Assembly (NCBI GenBank): GCA_030608005.1
Contig: JAUWIX010000010.1
Location: 1-40,126, forward strand
DNA from: Dehalococcoidia bacterium
Lineage (GTDB): Bacteria; Chloroflexota; Dehalococcoidia; Dehalococcoidales; BS750m-G39
Length of the DNA: 40,126 nucleotides
Reading direction: 5' to 3'
Part shown: piece after piece, positions 10,118 to 27,470 of the stretch
How positions within the stretch are numbered: position 1 is the first letter of the stretch
How the letters are laid out: each line of letters begins with the position of its first letter
Notes under the pieces: model-generated
What the model was told of the DNA's origin: nothing
The model's input: only the letters and a program-made list of their open reading frames with translations
Database searches by the model: none
Translations under genes and position numbers: made by a program

Positions 10118-10930
10118 TTAACTTACTACCGGCCTTGGTAAAAGCCTTTCCTCTAACTTTTTATCTATTGTCTCTTCAACAGTTGCCATGAGCACACCTA
10201 CGCCTGCCATGACCCGATTCAGTTTTGCGTCAACATCGCCTTTCCATCCTCCTGCTGCCACACAAGTCGCTTGAGCAATGCTCAGAACTCTAATAGACAG
10301 GTCAGCATAGTCCAAAGGGAACTGGGCAGCTTGGCAGATATTGAGGATATTCTCCAGCGCGCCAGTCGCCTCATCATAATCCCAGTTCAAAACTGACTTC
10401 TCTGCATGGGTAAGTAATGGTTTAATACAGACTTGTTGTATACACGACCATACCATTTGCATTTCGCCCTTGATATTATCAAGATACCCTTCTGGTACAG
10501 TCGCAACTGCTTCTCTTGACAGTGAAATAGCGATTTGCCAATCACCCTCAAGAGCCTGGCATAGGGCTTTTTGGAGCTTCATTTGCGCGGCTGAAGTACT
10601 TCGCTTTCGGGATGAGCTTTGTTCTAATCTATGTGTAAGTTCATCAAAAGTAATAACCTTTGGCAGCTTCTCTCTACGCTCGATAACTGACATGAGGATG
10701 AGGCGGGCAAAGGTGGAAGGCCCAATCCCTTGCTCAGCAGCTAATTTATCGAGTTTCGAACGGCTTTTGCTATCAAGGCGAATTGTTATCGGCCTATCCT
10801 TGGGAACCCTTACCCGTATCTCTTGAACCTTGGGTTCGGCAGCAAGGTCAAGCGGGCTATGCGTATCCCAATATTCCGCTTCTTGCTCCTCTGTCTCAAA
10901 TTGGGGTATAAGATCTTTCTCAATGCTCAT
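10118..10930 (-). CDS. CopG/BrnA-like ribbon-helix-helix antitoxin with long C-terminal extension
   Basis: A 270-residue protein. The N-terminal 100 residues carry the CopG-antitoxin pattern: EEQEAEYWDTHSPLDL, then a ribbon strand (RPITIRLD) and two helices (SKSRSKLDKLAAEQGI / GPSTFARLILMSVIER), which dimerise and bind DNA. Usual members end here at 80-110 residues. This one continues for about 160 helical residues (LQKALCQALEGDWQIAISLSREAV and following) that look like helical repeats and match no family I know. ATG 10930 follows AGGAGGAG. It lies 36 bases downstream of the BrnT-like toxin gene, the usual brnT-brnA order. It probably neutralises the toxin and represses the shared promoter at the palindrome 11264-11286. 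Confidence 0.75.
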   Translation of the reverse strand: MSIEKDLIPQFETEEQEAEYWDTHSPLDLAAEPKVQEIRVRVPKDRPITIRLDSKSRSKLDKLAAEQGIGPSTFARLILMSVIERREKLPKVITFDELTHRLEQSSSRKRSTSAAQMKLQKALCQALEGDWQIAISLSREAVATVPEGYLDNIKGEMQMVWSCIQQVCIKPLLTHAEKSVLNWDYDEATGALENILNICQAAQFPLDYADLSIRVLSIAQATCVAAGGWKGDVDAKLNRVMAGVGVLMATVEETIDKKLEERLLPRPVVS

Positions 10931-10966: not shown

Positions 10967-11251
10967 TTAACTCTGATGCTTCTTGTAATATCGCTTCTCC
11001 TTGTCTTGCATATCTCGGGCAGTGATAACTTTATATCGTGCCCCTTTGCCTTTCTTTCTCACAACAATGAACAGGTAGCGCCCAGACACAGCCTGACCGT
11101 ATACGCAATATGAAATTGATGTGCCTTTATGACAAATTGGCTTATCATCATAAATTGCCTCTTGAACTGCTTCAGGAGTAACACGATGCTTATGCCAAAT
11201 CTTGTCGACTACAGCTTGAGTCCAAATTAACGGGTATGTTATGAAAATCAA
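10967..11251 (-). CDS. BrnT-like toxin of a type II toxin-antitoxin pair
   Basis: A 94-residue basic protein. The N-terminal W...VVDKIWHKHRVTPEAVQEAIYDD, central GRYLFIVVRKKGKG and C-terminal YKVITARDMQDKEKRYYKKH follow the BrnT order (W-x-x-K-H-x-V, then D, then a central RYLF-V strand, then I-x-AR-x(3)-E-x-x-Y). BrnT proteins are RelE-fold ribonucleases that stop translation and are neutralised by BrnA. The start is TTG at 11251 with AAGGAG five bases upstream. The antitoxin-like gene follows. A promoter with a 23-bp palindromic operator lies directly upstream. Family identity is from pattern recall, so it could be a related RelE-fold protein. Confidence 0.72.
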   Translation of the reverse strand: MIFITYPLIWTQAVVDKIWHKHRVTPEAVQEAIYDDKPICHKGTSISYCVYGQAVSGRYLFIVVRKKGKGARYKVITARDMQDKEKRYYKKHQS

Positions 11252-18611: not shown

Positions 18612-19672
18612 GCATGATAATTACCATAGTAATCTTTCTCGGCATTCTGGCAGTGCTTATCCTTGCCCACGAACTGGGGCATTTTGCTACTGCCAAAGCC
18701 TTCGGGGTAAGGGTAGAAGAGTTCGGCTTGGGCTTTCCCCCCAGGCTAATATCGGTAAGAAGGGGGGAGACACGATATTCATTGAATGCCATACCCCTGG
18801 GTGGATTTACTAAAATGGCTGGCGAGGAAGACCCCAAGGTGCCGAGGAGCTTAGCCAGTAAGGGCATTGGCACCAGACTAATAGTTCTCAGCGCCGGCTC
18901 AATAATGAATGCACTGCTGCCTCTACTTTTGTTCTCCATTGCCTTTATGGTTCCCCATGATATGGCAGTGGGGGAGGTGTCGGTGGAGGAAGTAGCCCCC
19001 AATTCGCCAGCGGCAGCGGCTGGCATTGAGCCTGGAGATATAATCCTGAGCATAGAAGACAAGCCGGTGCATAATATCGGCAACCTGCAGCGCTATACCC
19101 ATCTCAACCTGGGCAAGGAAGTTACCCTGCGTATTAAACACAGTGATTCAACCACAGAGGAGGTTCAGGCGATACCCAGGTGGAAGCCTCCTGAGGGTCA
19201 GGGGGCAATTGGCATTTTGGTCAGCATGCTAAATCCAACCGTTGTTAGCCAACATGAGCCTTTCTGGAAAGCAATACCTATGGGAGCAAGCGAATGTATA
19301 GAAACCTTCGTCCTGTTCAAGAATGAGATAATCAGAATATTTATCGGGGCTACATCTCTCCAGGTGACAGGTCCGGTGGGTATCGCCCAATTGACGGGAG
19401 AGGTAGCTAAAGCCGGTATCAGCCCACTTCTGCAATTTGCTGGTTTTATTAGCATAAACCTGGCTTTAATCAATATCTTCCCCCTCCCAGCCCTGGATGG
19501 TGGCAGAATTGTGTTTGTTCTCCTTGAGGGGGCCCGCCGAGGCAAGCGTATTTCACCAAAGACAGAAGGACTGATTCACGCTATCGGTTTTGCCCTGCTC
19601 ATGGCAGCAATTCTGGTAATCACCTACCAGGACATTATACGCATTATAGCTGGAGAAAGCCTGATACCATGA
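18608..19672 (+). CDS. rseP: RIP-type site-2 zinc metalloprotease (RseP/RasP family)
   Basis: A 354-residue intramembrane protease. The first membrane helix carries the zinc motif H21-E22-L-G-H25. A PDZ domain occupies about 115-190 (NSPAAAAGIEPGDIILSIEDKPV). The third zinc ligand region is NIFPLPALDGGRIVFVLLE near residue 275-290, and a last membrane helix ends the protein. There is a single PDZ domain rather than the two of E. coli RseP, as in Bacillus RasP. Substrates are usually anti-sigma factors or signal-peptide remnants. ATGA overlaps at both ends join it to dxr and ispG. Confidence 0.96.
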   Translation: MSMIITIVIFLGILAVLILAHELGHFATAKAFGVRVEEFGLGFPPRLISVRRGETRYSLNAIPLGGFTKMAGEEDPKVPRSLASKGIGTRLIVLSAGSIMNALLPLLLFSIAFMVPHDMAVGEVSVEEVAPNSPAAAAGIEPGDIILSIEDKPVHNIGNLQRYTHLNLGKEVTLRIKHSDSTTEEVQAIPRWKPPEGQGAIGILVSMLNPTVVSQHEPFWKAIPMGASECIETFVLFKNEIIRIFIGATSLQVTGPVGIAQLTGEVAKAGISPLLQFAGFISINLALINIFPLPALDGGRIVFVLLEGARRGKRISPKTEGLIHAIGFALLMAAILVITYQDIIRIIAGESLIP

Positions 19673-20715
19673 ATCCTAGGCGAATATCAAAACCGATTCA
19701 AATTGGCAAGGTGACCGTTGGCGGCAGTGCCCCCATCGTGGTGCAATCTATGACCAAAACCGATACTCGTGATGTTATGTCAACCATTCGGCAAATCAAG
19801 GAGCTTGAGGACTGTGGCTGTGAACTGGTGCGGGTAGCTGTGCCCGATATGGAAGCAGCCGAGGCAATATCAGCTATTAAAAAGGGCGTCTCTATCCCCA
19901 TAATTGCCGATATTCACTTTGACTACCGCCTTGCCCTGATGGCACTGAAGGCTGGGGTTGATGGATTGCGGCTAAATCCAGGTAACATCAGCGAGCCGGA
20001 AAAGGTCAAGGCAGTAGCCTGTGCAGCTAAAGAAAGAAATGTCCCCATCCGTATCGGGGTAAATGCCGGCAGTTTGCCCAAGTCAGCAAATCCACAGTTA
20101 ACCATTGCTGAGCAGATGGTAGAGGCTGCCTTACAGCAGATAAGGCTACTGGAAAGCCTGGACTTTGACCTGATTAAGGTCTCGCTTAAAGCCTTTGATG
20201 TGCCGACTACTATTGAGGCTTACCAGAGCATTGCTCAGAAGATACCCTATCCCCTGCATATAGGCATCACTGAAGCCGGCACACCAAGAAAGGGTATTAT
20301 CCGCAGTGCTGTAGGCATCAGCACCCTTTTATATCAAGGTATTGGCGATACGATTAGGGTTTCACTGACTGCCCACCCCAGGGAGGAGGTTATTGCTGGC
20401 TATGAAATTCTAAAGAGCCTGAACCTGCGCCAGCATGGTCCGATACTGGTCAGCTGCCCCTCCTGTGGTCGGGCTGAGGTTGATATTATAAAATTGGCTG
20501 AGGCAGTAGAAAAAGAGCTGGTGAACATTGACAAGCCGATAAAAGTAGCAGTTATGGGCTGTGTGGTCAATGGACCTGGCGAAGCCAAGGACGCCGATAT
20601 AGGCATCGCCTGCGGCAAAGGCAGAGCCGTCCTGTTCAAGAAGGGCAAAAAGATTAGAACTATAGAGGAAAAGGATTTTATAACTGCCCTGATGGCGGAA
20701 GTGGAGAGGTTTTAG
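19669..20715 (+). CDS. ispG: 4-hydroxy-3-methylbut-2-en-1-yl diphosphate synthase
   Basis: A 348-residue [4Fe-4S] enzyme that converts MEcPP to HMBPP, the penultimate MEP-pathway step. The N-terminal TIM barrel shows PIVVQSMTKTDTRD, CELVRVAVPDMEAAEAI, IIADIHFDYRLAL, GLRLNPGNI and PIRIGVNAGSLPK. The C-terminal reductase-like domain contributes the cluster cysteines in CPSCGR and VMGCVVNGPGEAKDADIGIA. This is the compact bacterial form without the plant-type insertion. It overlaps the rseP stop by four bases. The stop is followed two bases later by the pentapeptide-channel gene. Confidence 0.98.
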   Translation: MNPRRISKPIQIGKVTVGGSAPIVVQSMTKTDTRDVMSTIRQIKELEDCGCELVRVAVPDMEAAEAISAIKKGVSIPIIADIHFDYRLALMALKAGVDGLRLNPGNISEPEKVKAVACAAKERNVPIRIGVNAGSLPKSANPQLTIAEQMVEAALQQIRLLESLDFDLIKVSLKAFDVPTTIEAYQSIAQKIPYPLHIGITEAGTPRKGIIRSAVGISTLLYQGIGDTIRVSLTAHPREEVIAGYEILKSLNLRQHGPILVSCPSCGRAEVDIIKLAEAVEKELVNIDKPIKVAVMGCVVNGPGEAKDADIGIACGKGRAVLFKKGKKIRTIEEKDFITALMAEVERF

Positions 20716-20717
20716 AT

Positions 20718-21722
20718 ATGGCGGAAGAAAAGGAAAAGCCCCTAACCCGTGAAGATGTAATTGATGCAATAGCACGAAATGGAGGTTCTGCGTGGGACCT
20801 TGACTTGTCGGAAAGCAATTTTGAGAAGGATGTTGACCTCCGCGATCTTGACTTATCTGGAATTATTTTAAACAAGGCAGCATTGCTTTCTGCTAAATTC
20901 GATGGTTCGAAACTTAAAGAGGCAAAATTTCGTGATGCTTACCTTCAACATGCTACATTCATTAAATACAAGGATAAGGTGACACTTCTCCGGGATGCTG
21001 ACCTAAGTGGTGCTTCTTTGGATGAAACTGACTTTAAAAACGCAGACCTGCAAGGTGCAAAGTTTGGTGCTACAGAAGAATCACCAGGAACATACTTATT
21101 TGATACCGACTTTCGAGGTGCAAATCTGTTTTTTACTCAATTCAAAGACTGCACTTTCTACCACACCAAACTAGAGGGAACTCGTCTTTTTGCAGCTGAT
21201 ATTTATGATTCCGATTTAGGAGACGCTGATTGGGGCAACTATAAAATTGGGGAAGAGACAAAGAAAAAAGATTTCTACTCTGCAGAGAGTATCTACCGAC
21301 GGCTGAAGCAGTGGTATACCAATACCGGTAGGTATGACTTAGCTGGAGAGTTTTTCTTCCGGGAGATGACAGCCCAAAGGAACAGGATCAAGTGGTGGCC
21401 ACAGCCTCGACATAGGCTCTGGTCTAAAATTGTTTCTCTCATCTGCGGCTATGGAGAGAGACCACTGAGAGTTATCGGATGGGCGGCGTCAGTCGTATTG
21501 ATTTCAGCACTCATTTATTTTATTGTAGGTTCAGTATGGGAGTGGTCGGCTTTTTGGAACTCCCTTTATTTTAGCGCGGTGTCTTTCACTGCTCTGGGCT
21601 ATGGTAGTTGGCTACAAGCAACTAATGACTGGATAAAGGGAATCGGTGCCTTTGAATCTTTCATTGGCGTTTTCACGATAGCGCTATTCCTGATAACCTT
21701 TACCAGAAAAATGAGAAGATAA
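20718..21722 (+). CDS. Pentapeptide-repeat protein fused to a two-helix potassium channel pore
   Basis: A 334-residue membrane protein. Residues about 25-165 form a pentapeptide-repeat beta-helix (A(D/N)LXX units such as LRDADLSGASLDETDFKNADLQGAKF). A linker (about 180-235, SIYRRLKQWYTNTGRYDLAGEFFFREM) leads to two membrane helices (about 248-270 and 310-330). Between them lies a pore loop with the filter-like T291-A-L-G-Y-G296, close to the TVGYG of K+ channels (Ion_trans_2 type). ATG 20718 has GGAGAGG upstream. It is two bases from ispG, so probably in the same operon, though its lower-GC, AT-richer codons look unlike ispG and suggest transfer. The ligand or sensor role of the pentapeptide part is unknown. 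Confidence 0.88.
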   Translation: MAEEKEKPLTREDVIDAIARNGGSAWDLDLSESNFEKDVDLRDLDLSGIILNKAALLSAKFDGSKLKEAKFRDAYLQHATFIKYKDKVTLLRDADLSGASLDETDFKNADLQGAKFGATEESPGTYLFDTDFRGANLFFTQFKDCTFYHTKLEGTRLFAADIYDSDLGDADWGNYKIGEETKKKDFYSAESIYRRLKQWYTNTGRYDLAGEFFFREMTAQRNRIKWWPQPRHRLWSKIVSLICGYGERPLRVIGWAASVVLISALIYFIVGSVWEWSAFWNSLYFSAVSFTALGYGSWLQATNDWIKGIGAFESFIGVFTIALFLITFTRKMRR

Positions 21723-21810
21723 GGGGAAGTTTGAAGGGGCTTCGCCCCTTCAAACACCATCCCTTCCCCCTCTCCTGTTTAGGAGAGGGGGATTAAGGGG
21801 GTGAGGTAGA
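21723..21810. repeat. Dispersed G/C-tract palindromic repeat, copy R3
   Basis: TTTGAAGGGGC-TTC-GCCCCTTCAAA and CCCCCTCTCCT-GTTT-AGGAGAGGGGG hairpins followed by the GGGGGTGAGGT edge. The copy fills the gap between the channel gene and proS. The proS ribosome binding site (CGGAG) lies just outside it. Confidence 0.8.
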
Positions 21811-21831: not shown

Positions 21832-23535
21832 ATGCGTGTATCAAAGTTATTCGGTAAGACACAGAGGGAGACGCCCGCCGAGGCGGAGACGGTCAGCCAC
21901 CAGCTACTGCTGAGAGCTGGGATGATTCATCAGGTAGCCGCCGGGGTCTATTCCTACCTGCCTCTGGGGTGGAGGGTGTTTAAGAAAATAGAGAATATAA
22001 TCAGGGAGGAGATGGATAAAGCCGGCGGGCAGGAGCTGATGATGCCGGTTCTTCAGCCTCTGGAGCTGTGGCAGGAAACAGGAAGAGACCTGGCTTTCGG
22101 CAAAGGGCTTTTCACCCTCTCCGACCGCAAAGACCGCAAATTATGCCTGGGACCAACCCACGAGGAGGTCATCACCCAACTGGTAAGATATAATGTCCAG
22201 AGCTACCGTGACCTGCCCCTGCTTCTATATCAAATCCAGACCAAGTTCCGCGATGAGCCCCGCCCCAGAGCCGGGTTGATTAGAGTTCGTGAGTTCACTA
22301 TGAAAGACCTCTATAGCTTTGATACCGATGAAGATGGATTAAACCAGAGCTACGATAAGATGCTCCAGGCATATCAGAATATCTTTACTCGCTGTGGTCT
22401 GCACACCCTGCTGGTTGAGGCTGATAGTGGTGCCATTGGTGGCAAGGAGTCCCACGAGTTTATGGTTATCACCGAGAGCGGCGAAGACGAGATTATCCAC
22501 TGTGCTCATTGCCGATACGCAGCTAATGTGGATAAGGCTGAGAGCATCAAGGGCAAAGTAGAACCAGAGGAGCCGTTACCACTGGAAGAGGTTGCCACAC
22601 CAGGTGTCGGCACTATTGAACAGGTATCAAATTTCCTGAAGGTGCCTAAAAGCCATACCCTTAAAGCAGTATTCTATATCGCCGACGGCAAGCTAGTCTT
22701 TGTCGTCATCAGGGGAGACATTGAGGTAAACGAGGTAAAGTTAAGGAACGCTCTGGGCTGCGTTGAACTCCGCCTAGCCACTGAGGCTGAGGCAATAGAA
22801 GCCGGTGTAGTAGCTGGGTCAGCATCAGCCATAGGCATAAGTGACATCAAAATCATTGCTGACGATTCCATAACCTCAGGGGCGAACTTTGTTGCTGGCG
22901 CCAATAAACCCGATACCCACTTTAGAAATGTCAACTACCCCAGAGACTTCCGGGTTGACCTAATGGCAGACATAGCCCAGGCTCGTGCCGGAGAAGGATG
23001 CCCCCAGTGTGGAAGTAAATTATTATCCACCCGCGGCATTGAGGTAGGACACATCTTCAAGCTTGGCACCTTCATTAGTGAAAAATTAGGCGCCCTTTTT
23101 ATTGACCCCAATGGTGCACCTCACCCTATTATCATGGGATGTTACGGCATTGGTCTTGACAGGTTGCTAGCAGCTGCCATAGAGCAGAATCATGATGCTC
23201 AAGGCATTATCTGGCCAATGTCTATCGCCCCATATCACATCTATCTTTGCCCCCTGCATCTGGAAAACCCCGAAGTAGCCACCGCCGCAGAGAAAGTCTA
23301 TGCCGAGCTTGAGGCACAGGGTTTAGAGGTGCTCTTTGACGACCGCAAAGAATCCCCGGGGGTAAAGTTCAATGACGCCGACCTCCTAGGAATACCCATC
23401 AGGGTTACCATTAGCCCCCGAGCTTTGGAGACCGACAGCGTAGAGATAAAGAAGCGCTCCGAGAAAGAATCTGAGCTTATGCCACTGGAGGGGATAGCGG
23501 CAAGGCTCAAGGAGCTTATTAAGAATTTGTTTTGA
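21832..23535 (+). CDS. proS: Prolyl-tRNA synthetase, bacterial type
   Basis: A 567-residue class II synthetase that charges tRNA-Pro. Motif 1 region GWRVFKKIENIIREEMDKAGGQELMMPVLQP, motif 2 QIQTKFRDEPRPRAGLIRVREFTMKDLYSF, an inserted YbaK-type editing domain (about 225-390) with KVPKSHTLKAVFYIADGKLVFVVIRGD, motif 3 GCYGIGLDRLLAAAIEQNHD, and a C-terminal anticodon-binding domain (about 465-560, GLEVLFDDRKESPGVKFNDADLLGIP). The insertion makes it the long bacterial ProRS. ATG 21832 follows CGGAG. It is the last gene of the plus-strand operon and converges on pheT. Confidence 0.98.
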   Translation: MRVSKLFGKTQRETPAEAETVSHQLLLRAGMIHQVAAGVYSYLPLGWRVFKKIENIIREEMDKAGGQELMMPVLQPLELWQETGRDLAFGKGLFTLSDRKDRKLCLGPTHEEVITQLVRYNVQSYRDLPLLLYQIQTKFRDEPRPRAGLIRVREFTMKDLYSFDTDEDGLNQSYDKMLQAYQNIFTRCGLHTLLVEADSGAIGGKESHEFMVITESGEDEIIHCAHCRYAANVDKAESIKGKVEPEEPLPLEEVATPGVGTIEQVSNFLKVPKSHTLKAVFYIADGKLVFVVIRGDIEVNEVKLRNALGCVELRLATEAEAIEAGVVAGSASAIGISDIKIIADDSITSGANFVAGANKPDTHFRNVNYPRDFRVDLMADIAQARAGEGCPQCGSKLLSTRGIEVGHIFKLGTFISEKLGALFIDPNGAPHPIIMGCYGIGLDRLLAAAIEQNHDAQGIIWPMSIAPYHIYLCPLHLENPEVATAAEKVYAELEAQGLEVLFDDRKESPGVKFNDADLLGIPIRVTISPRALETDSVEIKKRSEKESELMPLEGIAARLKELIKNLF

Positions 23536-23695
23536 ACCCTATCCCCTTTATCCCCTTCCCCTTGATAAGGGGAAGGGGAATTGTTTATATAAGAGAGGCA
23601 AAGCCTCTCTTTGACTCTCCTTCCGTATCCCCTTCAAAGGAGAGGGGGAAGAATAATTATTGAAGGGGCGGAGCCCCTTCAACCCTCCTTTAATA
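23535..23695. repeat. Dispersed G/C-tract palindromic repeat, copy R4
   Basis: It lies between the convergent proS and pheT genes. It contains CCCCTTCCCCTT-GAT-AAGGGGAAGGGG, AGAGAGGC-AAA-GCCTCTCT and TTGAAGGGGC-GGA-GCCCCTTCAA. The left edge AACCCTATCCCCTTTA matches R1. The hairpins may also serve as terminators here, although no long T-run follows. Confidence 0.8.
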
Positions 23696-26195: not shown

Positions 26196-27470
26196 TTAGG
26201 TTCCTTCTGAGAACTTTGGTTGCTTGGCATGGCATTCGGAGCATAAAAGAAGCCCGTTTTCTACCGTTGTAGGCCCTCCTTCATGCCATGGCTTTATGTG
26301 GTGAAATTCGGCTTCATCAAAGTTTAACGACTTTCCGCAACCGTGCCCTTGACACTTACCTTTATCTCGGAAGTAAATTGCGAGTCTCTGTCCATAATCA
26401 AATAGTCTTTTCTCATCCTTAAGTCGCAACTCTGGAGCAAATTCCAAAAACTTTCCAAGCATTATATCGAAGCCTTTCCCAACTGATTTCCTACTCTCTG
26501 TGCTTCGGCTTCTAGCGTCTCTATAGTCAAAATAAGGTCCATACTCGTAGCTGTAGCCATAGACCTTTGTTAGAAACTGTTCCACGAAATCTTTGAACTT
26601 ATCTCCCTTCTGCTTTATAGAAGCATATCGTTTCAGTAAATACGATGCGAGAAGGTAGAGCGGGATGACGTCACCTCTACGCTTTATTATCTTAGCTTTT
26701 GTGCCCAACGCCTTGTGAAGGAAGCTCAAAGTCTCATCGATTTCATCCAATAATTTTTGGGGAGGATTCACATCTTTATATAATTGATAGTTTTGTCGCA
26801 GATTTGGAAACTTTATGTTGGTGATGTGAAGACCGCTCGTTGGAAGGTCAATATTACCTAACTCGAGCGAAACTACTTGAGCACAAAGATATCTGTGACC
26901 AAACCTGTAATTTTCTATACCTAAAGACTGCCAGAATCGGTCTTGAGAGATTTCCACTATCTTATTTCGTAGCTTACCCCTCATAGCATTTAACTTCTCC
27001 GGCGAGTTCAAGGGTATTCCTTCTTGAAGTCGAAGGAAAATGTCAGAAGTAATTTCCTCTTGAGCTTGGTAAACGACCACAGCATCTATCTTGTAATAAA
27101 GGAGCTTGTAGTAAAACTGGGGGTATAAATTCTTCAAATGTGCAATGTATTTGCCTTGTATAGCTAGGTCGGTGCTACGCTCTCCTAAAGTGAAGAGACC
27201 GTCTATAAAATCAAAAATGCCTCTAAGCCTCTGCTGTCCATCCAGACATTCGTAAGCACCGTCTTTCATCTGCCGCAAAAATATTTTATTAATGTCGTAA
27301 TCCCGCATAATAGAGTCTATTAGAAGTTGTTTCTTGGGGACTTTCCAGATGTAGGAACGCTGATACTCTGTATTAAACAAAATTTTGGTTGGTTCTTGCT
27401 CATAAAGTTTGTAAAGCTGCTCAATAGTAAAATTTACCCCTCTACCAATTACAACATTTTCATCAGTCAT
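26196..27470 (-). CDS. DUF262 protein with C-terminal HNH nuclease (putative defence)
   Basis: A 424-residue protein. The N-terminal DUF262/ParB-like domain has YQRSYIW (36-42) and the hallmark DGQQR (77-81), followed by a helical middle. The C-terminal HNH unit has a zinc-finger-like Cys set (C373, C378, C410, C413) and H390/H391, N405 and H414 as the nuclease core. DUF262 with a nuclease partner occurs in GmrSD-type modification-dependent restriction and other anti-phage systems, so a defence role is likely but not shown. GmrSD normally uses DUF1524 rather than this HNH type. ATG 27470 follows GGAGG. It interrupts pheS-pheT, 107 bases after pheS and 76 before pheT; its AT-richer codon use suggests acquisition. 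Confidence 0.85.
   Translation of the reverse strand: MTDENVVIGRGVNFTIEQLYKLYEQEPTKILFNTEYQRSYIWKVPKKQLLIDSIMRDYDINKIFLRQMKDGAYECLDGQQRLRGIFDFIDGLFTLGERSTDLAIQGKYIAHLKNLYPQFYYKLLYYKIDAVVVYQAQEEITSDIFLRLQEGIPLNSPEKLNAMRGKLRNKIVEISQDRFWQSLGIENYRFGHRYLCAQVVSLELGNIDLPTSGLHITNIKFPNLRQNYQLYKDVNPPQKLLDEIDETLSFLHKALGTKAKIIKRRGDVIPLYLLASYLLKRYASIKQKGDKFKDFVEQFLTKVYGYSYEYGPYFDYRDARSRSTESRKSVGKGFDIMLGKFLEFAPELRLKDEKRLFDYGQRLAIYFRDKGKCQGHGCGKSLNFDEAEFHHIKPWHEGGPTTVENGLLLCSECHAKQPKFSEGT

Follow-up and report, generated by a model that had tools for sequence, protein, structure and literature searches.

The window, i.e., the whole 40,126-nucleotide stretch of DNA analysed here, carries on its + strand an open reading frame (20718..21722) encoding a 334-aa fusion of a pentapeptide-repeat domain to a K+-channel fold, as indicated by the ORF list, the translation and Pfam. 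The gene is bordered upstream by ispG (19669..20715, +; NCBIfam NF001540, 5.8e-143) and downstream by proS (21832..23535, +; NCBIfam NF006625, 1.4e-231), which delimit what is referred to below as the slot. Since the ispG stop codon lies at 20713-20715, only two bases (20716-20717) stand between ispG and the channel gene. The motif GGAGAGG (20703..20709, +), located inside the last ispG codons, is likely the ribosome-binding site of the channel gene, with translational coupling to ispG, and most relatives are similar to the window locus in having an RBS-like motif and a start at +2 nt. Upstream of ispG are found pyrH, frr, uppS, dxr and rseP, and downstream of proS is pheT, all of them, like ispG and proS, confirmed by NCBIfam. 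The first-pass annotation had placed the ORF two bases 3' of ispG and 5' of proS, in agreement with both the coordinates and the NCBIfam assignments.

The channel gene was also said to differ in composition from its neighbours, and it does. Its GC content is 0.432 (ispG, 0.497; proS, 0.511) and its GC3 is 0.401 (ispG, 0.520; proS, 0.564); both values fall below those of 11 other translation and isoprenoid genes (tsf to proS, pheT and pheS), which range from 0.47 to 0.51 for GC and from 0.45 to 0.56 for GC3. The gene occurs as a single copy in its own genome, and no other Ion_trans_2 protein was found in that assembly (87% complete). Given that homologues are 48–66% identical over the last ~160 aa and that the channel genes of two relatives (G007 and G009) show a dN of 0.081 for a dS of 0.537, the ORF is, on this comparison of sequences, a selected protein family and not a chance reading frame.

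Just 3' of the channel stop codon, a hairpin is predicted at 21729..21755 (+; -28.4 kcal/mol, z -5.7), the core of which is present in a second copy at 23661-23681, after proS. These strong hairpins share the core TGAAGGGGC...GCCCCTTCA, for which shuffled sequences gave an expectation of 0 by chance, and similar ones were also observed in the ispG-proS gaps of two relatives (L084 and L087).

Domain architecture and predicted structure

Two Pfam domains are found in the same chain, Pentapeptide (PF00805; 2.1e-16, 59.6 bits for a cut-off of 20.2) and Ion_trans_2 (PF07885; 1.7e-8, 34.6 bits for a cut-off of 22.5), and the proposed joining of a pentapeptide beta-helix to a pore with an ALGYG filter is thus confirmed. 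The protein begins with an N-terminal cap (aa 8-24, 20739..20789, +; consensus TREDVLxxIEENGGTAEG), which was recognised in the alignment of homologues, is modelled as a helix at 11-20, and is present too in a relative from Chloroflexota (L147) and in one from Nostoc (L142). It is followed by a pentapeptide beta-helix of ~7 coils (aa 25-175, 20790..21242, +), identified by Pfam, by the model and by a fold match to 2j8k, on which this rod was superposed over 158 residues (Z 18.9, rmsd 3.4). Next come a conserved linker, the helical hairpin AxxYRxLKxWYTxxGxYDxAGEFFFREM (aa 183-221, 21264..21380, +), whose helices appear in a low-confidence part of the model, and a pre-TM segment (aa 230-248, 21405..21461, +) whose GYGE (244-247) is invariant in 13 aligned sequences.

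The pore itself consists of a predicted TM1 (aa 249-273, 21462..21536, +; Ion_trans_2 match, and a model helix with pLDDT <60), a pore helix with its selectivity filter (aa 278-298, 21549..21611, +), and a predicted TM2 (aa 304-333, 21627..21716, +; Pfam and model) that runs up to the basic C-terminus. The pore helix and filter are indicated by Pfam, by the alignment and by profile matches to Kv1.2, K2P and NaK-type channels, the match to Kv1.2 reaching 3.9e-6 among solved K+ channels. The filter reads SFTALGYGSW, with ALGYG at aa 292-296 (21591-21605). In two-TM K+ channels the filter is TVGYG. Of the K+ signature T-x-G-Y-G, the window channel has the GYG and keeps T291, while A292 occupies the position of the TVGYG threonine. 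Its pore profile is similar to the NaK and MthK pores, from which it differs in three respects: the filter threonine position is A, S or T in the channel family, GYG is followed by S, P, N or Q in place of D, and there is no RCK domain.

The homologues share the same succession of blocks, i.e., N-terminal cap, pentapeptides, helical linker, and GYGE segment followed by the pore, and their chain ends with TM2. Their total length ranges from 272 to 428 aa, and the extent of the pentapeptides is highly variable.

A monomer model was obtained with AlphaFold2 from a four-row alignment (mean pLDDT 64.4). The beta-helix is confident to about aa 150-170 (block pLDDT of 82-95 over aa 11-150, except for 70 at 81-90), the helices beyond are uncertain, and the pore of the monomer has a pLDDT <60; the pore modelled alone was poor (pLDDT 53.5) and gave no useful structural match. 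The two-helix pore claimed in the first reading is a prediction from the sequence profiles, the model being confident for the beta-helix only.

Occupancy and history of the slot behind ispG

Of 61 relatives, counting the genome of the window itself, 11 carry the channel gene. Using a linker-pore profile, we obtained matches in 22 of the 151 genomes of the order, 21 of which were kept as carriers once G501, with a weak and partial match on another contig, had been dropped. Two further contigs (L021 and L023), whose records, like that of L022, name Dehalococcoidia or Dehalococcoidales, were added to the loci of the order, and L022 and G458, which are one contig, were counted once. Twenty loci show ispG and the channel together, a set that leaves out G471 and G531, at contig edges, and G469, whose ispG lies on a different contig. 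In each of them the channel gene comes either first or second 3' of ispG. Its ATG stands exactly 2 nt past the ispG stop in 14 of these loci and at 0 nt in one; a single ORF separates the two genes in G001, G002 and G009, the gap is 159 nt in G007, and G509 has a tandem pair. Moreover, proS lies 3' of the channel in 16 of the 17 loci with enough contig (the 20 above minus G462, G509, G510 and L023, where the contig ends before proS, plus G469), the exception being G034, where proS is on another contig.

The slot is shared by nine family codes of the order. Within the order the ispG-proS gap varies from 38 bp to 4.6 kb, and a reading of 60 regions showed unrelated contents in non-carriers. A search of 393 genomes of the class gave matches at 1e-8 in 16. 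Eight strong matches fall outside the order, five of them behind ispG (G324, G547, G577, G598 and G637) and three elsewhere, the weak matches G604, G644 and G689 being left out of this reading. Matches at 1e-5 were obtained in 33 of 400 genomes of the phylum, many of them with several long open frames. Because the same slot is occupied by homologues in many families, a lone recent insertion at the window site is ruled out.

We also examined the slot as a possible defence island and rejected this view: its 85 ORFs are mostly of zinc-ribbon/TM2, metallophosphoesterase, DUF4760, ABC and NUDIX types, and PADLOC matches are few, many resembling generic ATPases. Likewise, a phage or plasmid origin of this channel clade was discarded, with 0 matches in phages or viral contigs and plasmid relatives at most ~34% identical. 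As a separate observation, a cluster of related ORFs, of the DUF4760 type where checked (L113 and L026), recurs in the channel's slot, both in L026 and in non-carriers (e.g., L086, L090, L113, L121, L122 and L125). Two ORFs located between ispG and the channel (L024, 3309-3995; L034, 865-1704) have no Pfam or PADLOC match.

The history of the channel was then compared to that of its flanking genes, using distances over the channel's C-terminal 160 aa. These distances follow neither those of ispG (Mantel r 0.04, p 0.37, n=16), nor those of proS (r 0.07, n=12) or dxr (r 0.006, n=8), whereas the flanks agree with each other (r 0.93 for proS-ispG, n=10; r 0.94 for dxr-ispG, n=8). Grouping the channels of family f1 as one clade was rejected (AU p 6.9e-48). 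The seven f1 channels require at least four changes on the channel tree, compared to two changes for f1 on the proS tree, and on the ispG tree five f1 sequences form one side of a branch (85/90). Conflicts between the trees include that of G503 and G508, which are ispG sisters, yet distant by channel. It should be noted that G510, G007 and G008 are included in the channel tree and absent from the ispG tree, their ispG being split or partial.

Composition was examined in the same way. The channel GC3 is 0.33–0.48 in 13 of 15 genomes, for an ispG GC3 of 0.375–0.773, and the difference between channel and ispG averages -0.18 (p 4e-4, n=15). Over the same nine genomes, GC3 is correlated between proS and ispG with an r of 0.98, versus 0.59 (p 0.09) between channel and ispG. 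The channels of G001 and G009 are host-like, as if long resident.

Remnants support the loss of the channel in some lineages: G004 retains a start remnant, ATGGGAGACGGG, behind ispG, and decayed copies are seen in G476 (truncated) and G469 (in-frame stop). On the G469 contig (L077), the interrupted channel has proS directly 3', the full ispG lies on another contig, and an upstream frame resembles a fragment of ispG from its 3' end, which may reflect rearrangement or faulty assembly. The possibility that the 3' end of ispG was transferred together with the channel was also considered and set aside, no signal of it being seen there. Within the channel, N-terminal and pore distances agree weakly (r 0.19, p 0.07). 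A single clade for the order's channels was not rejected (p 0.17), and therefore any exchange seems to have taken place within this group.

Overall, we infer an old slot in which recombination between relatives replaces one channel allele by another without change of position, as in genes of conflict or stress response. The missing trace at the ispG 3' end and the weak agreement between the N-terminal and pore distances of the channel count against this view. The acquisition put forward earlier is thus retained in part: it agrees with the foreign-like composition and with the tree conflict between channel and flanks, but not in the form of a lone insertion, the same slot being used in nine family codes and in five of the eight strong class matches. 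Hidden paralogy, which rivals this history and not the function, would also yield tree conflict without transfer if different copies of an old tandem array behind ispG had been lost in each lineage. The tandem pair of G509, the start remnant of G004 with the decayed copies, and the single clade that was not rejected (p 0.17) are consistent with it. We nevertheless consider it somewhat unlikely, since every other carrier read has a single channel gene at the slot, most channel GC3 values do not follow the host as expected of old residents, and several duplications plus many losses would be needed.

This is an unusual case, in which an exact position is kept and the history of the gene is unlinked from that of the core genes on both sides. 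Related bacteria appear to have exchanged versions of the channel in this slot, which points to a defence-like or stress channel that is open to change and not to an ordinary housekeeping pore. The slot also offers a natural set of alleles, with differing rods on one pore type in one place, which may reveal what the rod senses.

HalA, other relatives and candidate functions

Relatives with the pentapeptide-channel fusion were found across Chloroflexota, haloarchaea, Nostoc and Aeromonas. Those from haloarchaea, cyanobacteria, Aeromonas and other Chloroflexota are annotated as 'pentapeptide repeat-containing protein' or 'potassium channel family protein'. Like the window channel, they have pentapeptides, a helical linker, a GYGE-like segment and a pore ending at TM2, but they are at most ~34% identical over linker and pore and lie outside the ispG slot where examined; some of them (L042 and L142) have a filter without GYG. 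Pentapeptide-channel fusions are common, yet uncharacterised as far as the literature was searched: no study of one was found, and on this search they do not form a well-studied family of known role. What is new here is the slot, its history and the link to HalA, the domain pair being already annotated in haloarchaea, cyanobacteria and elsewhere. The rod has its beta-helix fold in common with MfpA, Qnr and HetL, which are soluble proteins with no pore fusion, and the window channel falls far under their cut-offs (Qnr equivalog, 44.8 against 240; MfpA, 25.7 against 360).

Among full-length proteins of solved structure, the nearest relative is HalA, the channel effector of the anti-phage system Hailong (PDB 9nyi; NCBIfam NF051894), although the similarity is weak and far under the HalA cut-off (19.2 bits against 250). 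The effector of Hailong is reported to be suppressed by ssDNA oligomers that the system itself produces (PMC12657230). The lengths are alike, with 334 aa for the channel, 333 for the HalA chain and 338 positions for the HalA model. Foldseek aligned the channel to HalA bound to oligodeoxyadenylate (9nyi_A) with an E of 7e-4 over 311 columns, the only match of full-length scale among the PDB matches listed; with a TMq of 0.26, an rmsd of 13.1 A and a largely uncertain model, this match is not a rigid superposition. HalA is not among the 50 matches listed by a VIA-align of the model, which are pentapeptide folds.

With the HalA profile, matches were obtained to the window channel in its pore (5.5e-4) and to 7 of the 12 aligned channel homologues (0.01), as well as to a Chloroflexota relative (L042) at 1e-12 over positions 178-338, i.e., linker and pore, and to the Nostoc relative (L142) over HalA positions 50-338; plain pentapeptide proteins were matched by HalA positions 48-139. 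HalA is therefore probably a distant member of the pentapeptide-channel architecture. A search of relatives with the HalA profile gave 0 matches above the cut-off in 21 genomes. In contrast to HalA, the window channel sits in a core operon and has no nucleotidyltransferase partner among the scanned neighbours: none of the 19 distinct window proteins scanned is a HalB-like nucleotidyltransferase, the neighbours being ispG and proS, and none was found among the ORFs scanned in the relatives' slots.

As a tentative reading, we propose a cytoplasmically gated cation channel, which a signal acting on the rod would open and which would serve as a stress or defence effector. It would be a membrane channel, probably a tetramer as in its fold family, with both termini likely cytoplasmic because basic residues precede TM1 and stand at the chain end. 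The rod would stand on the helical hairpin and the GYGE segment, leading to TM1, the ALGYG P-loop and TM2. A cytoplasmic ligand or partner (protein or nucleic acid) on the rod may keep the channel shut, and its loss or binding would pull on the hairpin, causing a leak of K+ or other cations and a depolarised cell. This gating is modelled on HalA, which reportedly has a DNA-binding crown domain and a channel gated by DNA, the DNA being the restraint. The HalA link suggests a testable mode, that of a cytoplasmic beta-helix keeping a cation channel shut.

The defence role suggested by the first-pass annotation is supported indirectly, by the distant relationship to HalA and the exchange-like evolution; against it, most of the 85 slot ORFs are not defence genes, no phage or viral contig matched, no HalB-like partner was seen in the scanned neighbours, and the HalA score is 19 bits for a cut-off of 250. 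Moreover, the GYG filter and purifying selection suit an ordinary K+ channel as well. A broader proposal sees the ispG-proS junction of the class as a place permanently reserved for an immune-type channel, where versions of a HalA-like, rod-gated cation channel with rods of variable length are passed between families and inserted at one translationally coupled position, so that each lineage has its own trigger specificity; it seems to us unlikely.

An ordinary channel for K+ homeostasis or osmotic adjustment, with a rod sensing ionic strength or a metabolite and a gene that is a dispensable niche adaptation, is a possible if doubtful alternative to the stress or defence effector. The GYG filter and the channel's being the sole Ion_trans_2 protein found in an 87% complete genome would both fit, as would a haloarchaeal relative that adjoins a sodium:proton antiporter gene. 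In its favour, too, TrkH was not found in the own genome, nor in any of the 11 f1 genomes; over the order, however, it is present in 6 of 21 carriers, as compared to 68 of 130 genomes without the channel gene (Fisher p 0.059; 0.57 without f1). TrkH thus does not separate carriers from non-carriers, and the channel as a substitute for Trk K+ uptake is not supported. In addition, the gene is absent from most genomes of the order, and an exchange-like history with a foreign GC3 is unusual in housekeeping channels.

A link to isoprenoids or lipid II, in which the channel would sense envelope precursors and have its dose set through the coupling with ispG, could account for the +2 nt start in 14 of 20 loci, kept through allele changes; given the unrelated slot contents of non-carriers and the location elsewhere of three of the eight strong class homologues and of the plasmid relatives examined, it appears very improbable. 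Scarcely credible is a rod acting as an MfpA/Qnr-like DNA mimic tethered to the membrane by a non-conducting pore-like anchor, for even if its best fold matches are pentapeptide proteins including MfpA and Qnr, such folds are common to all pentapeptide domains, and the filter, pore helix and GYGE are more conserved than an anchor requires.

Other genes of the window

Two further features of the window were recorded apart from the channel. At 26196-27470 (-), ~4.5 kb from it, a gene with a GC content of 0.404 encodes a GmrSD_N (1.4e-15) and HNH protein, whose best PADLOC match is NsnA (1.7e-22). It lies between pheT and pheS, which are adjacent in L021 and L024, and is likely a restriction-type defence gene inserted in the core operon. 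At 10970-11251 and 10121-10930 (-), a weak BrnT-toxin-like ORF (4.8e-6, below the Pfam cut-off) and an ORF without Pfam match, respectively, stand side by side and possibly form a toxin-antitoxin pair.
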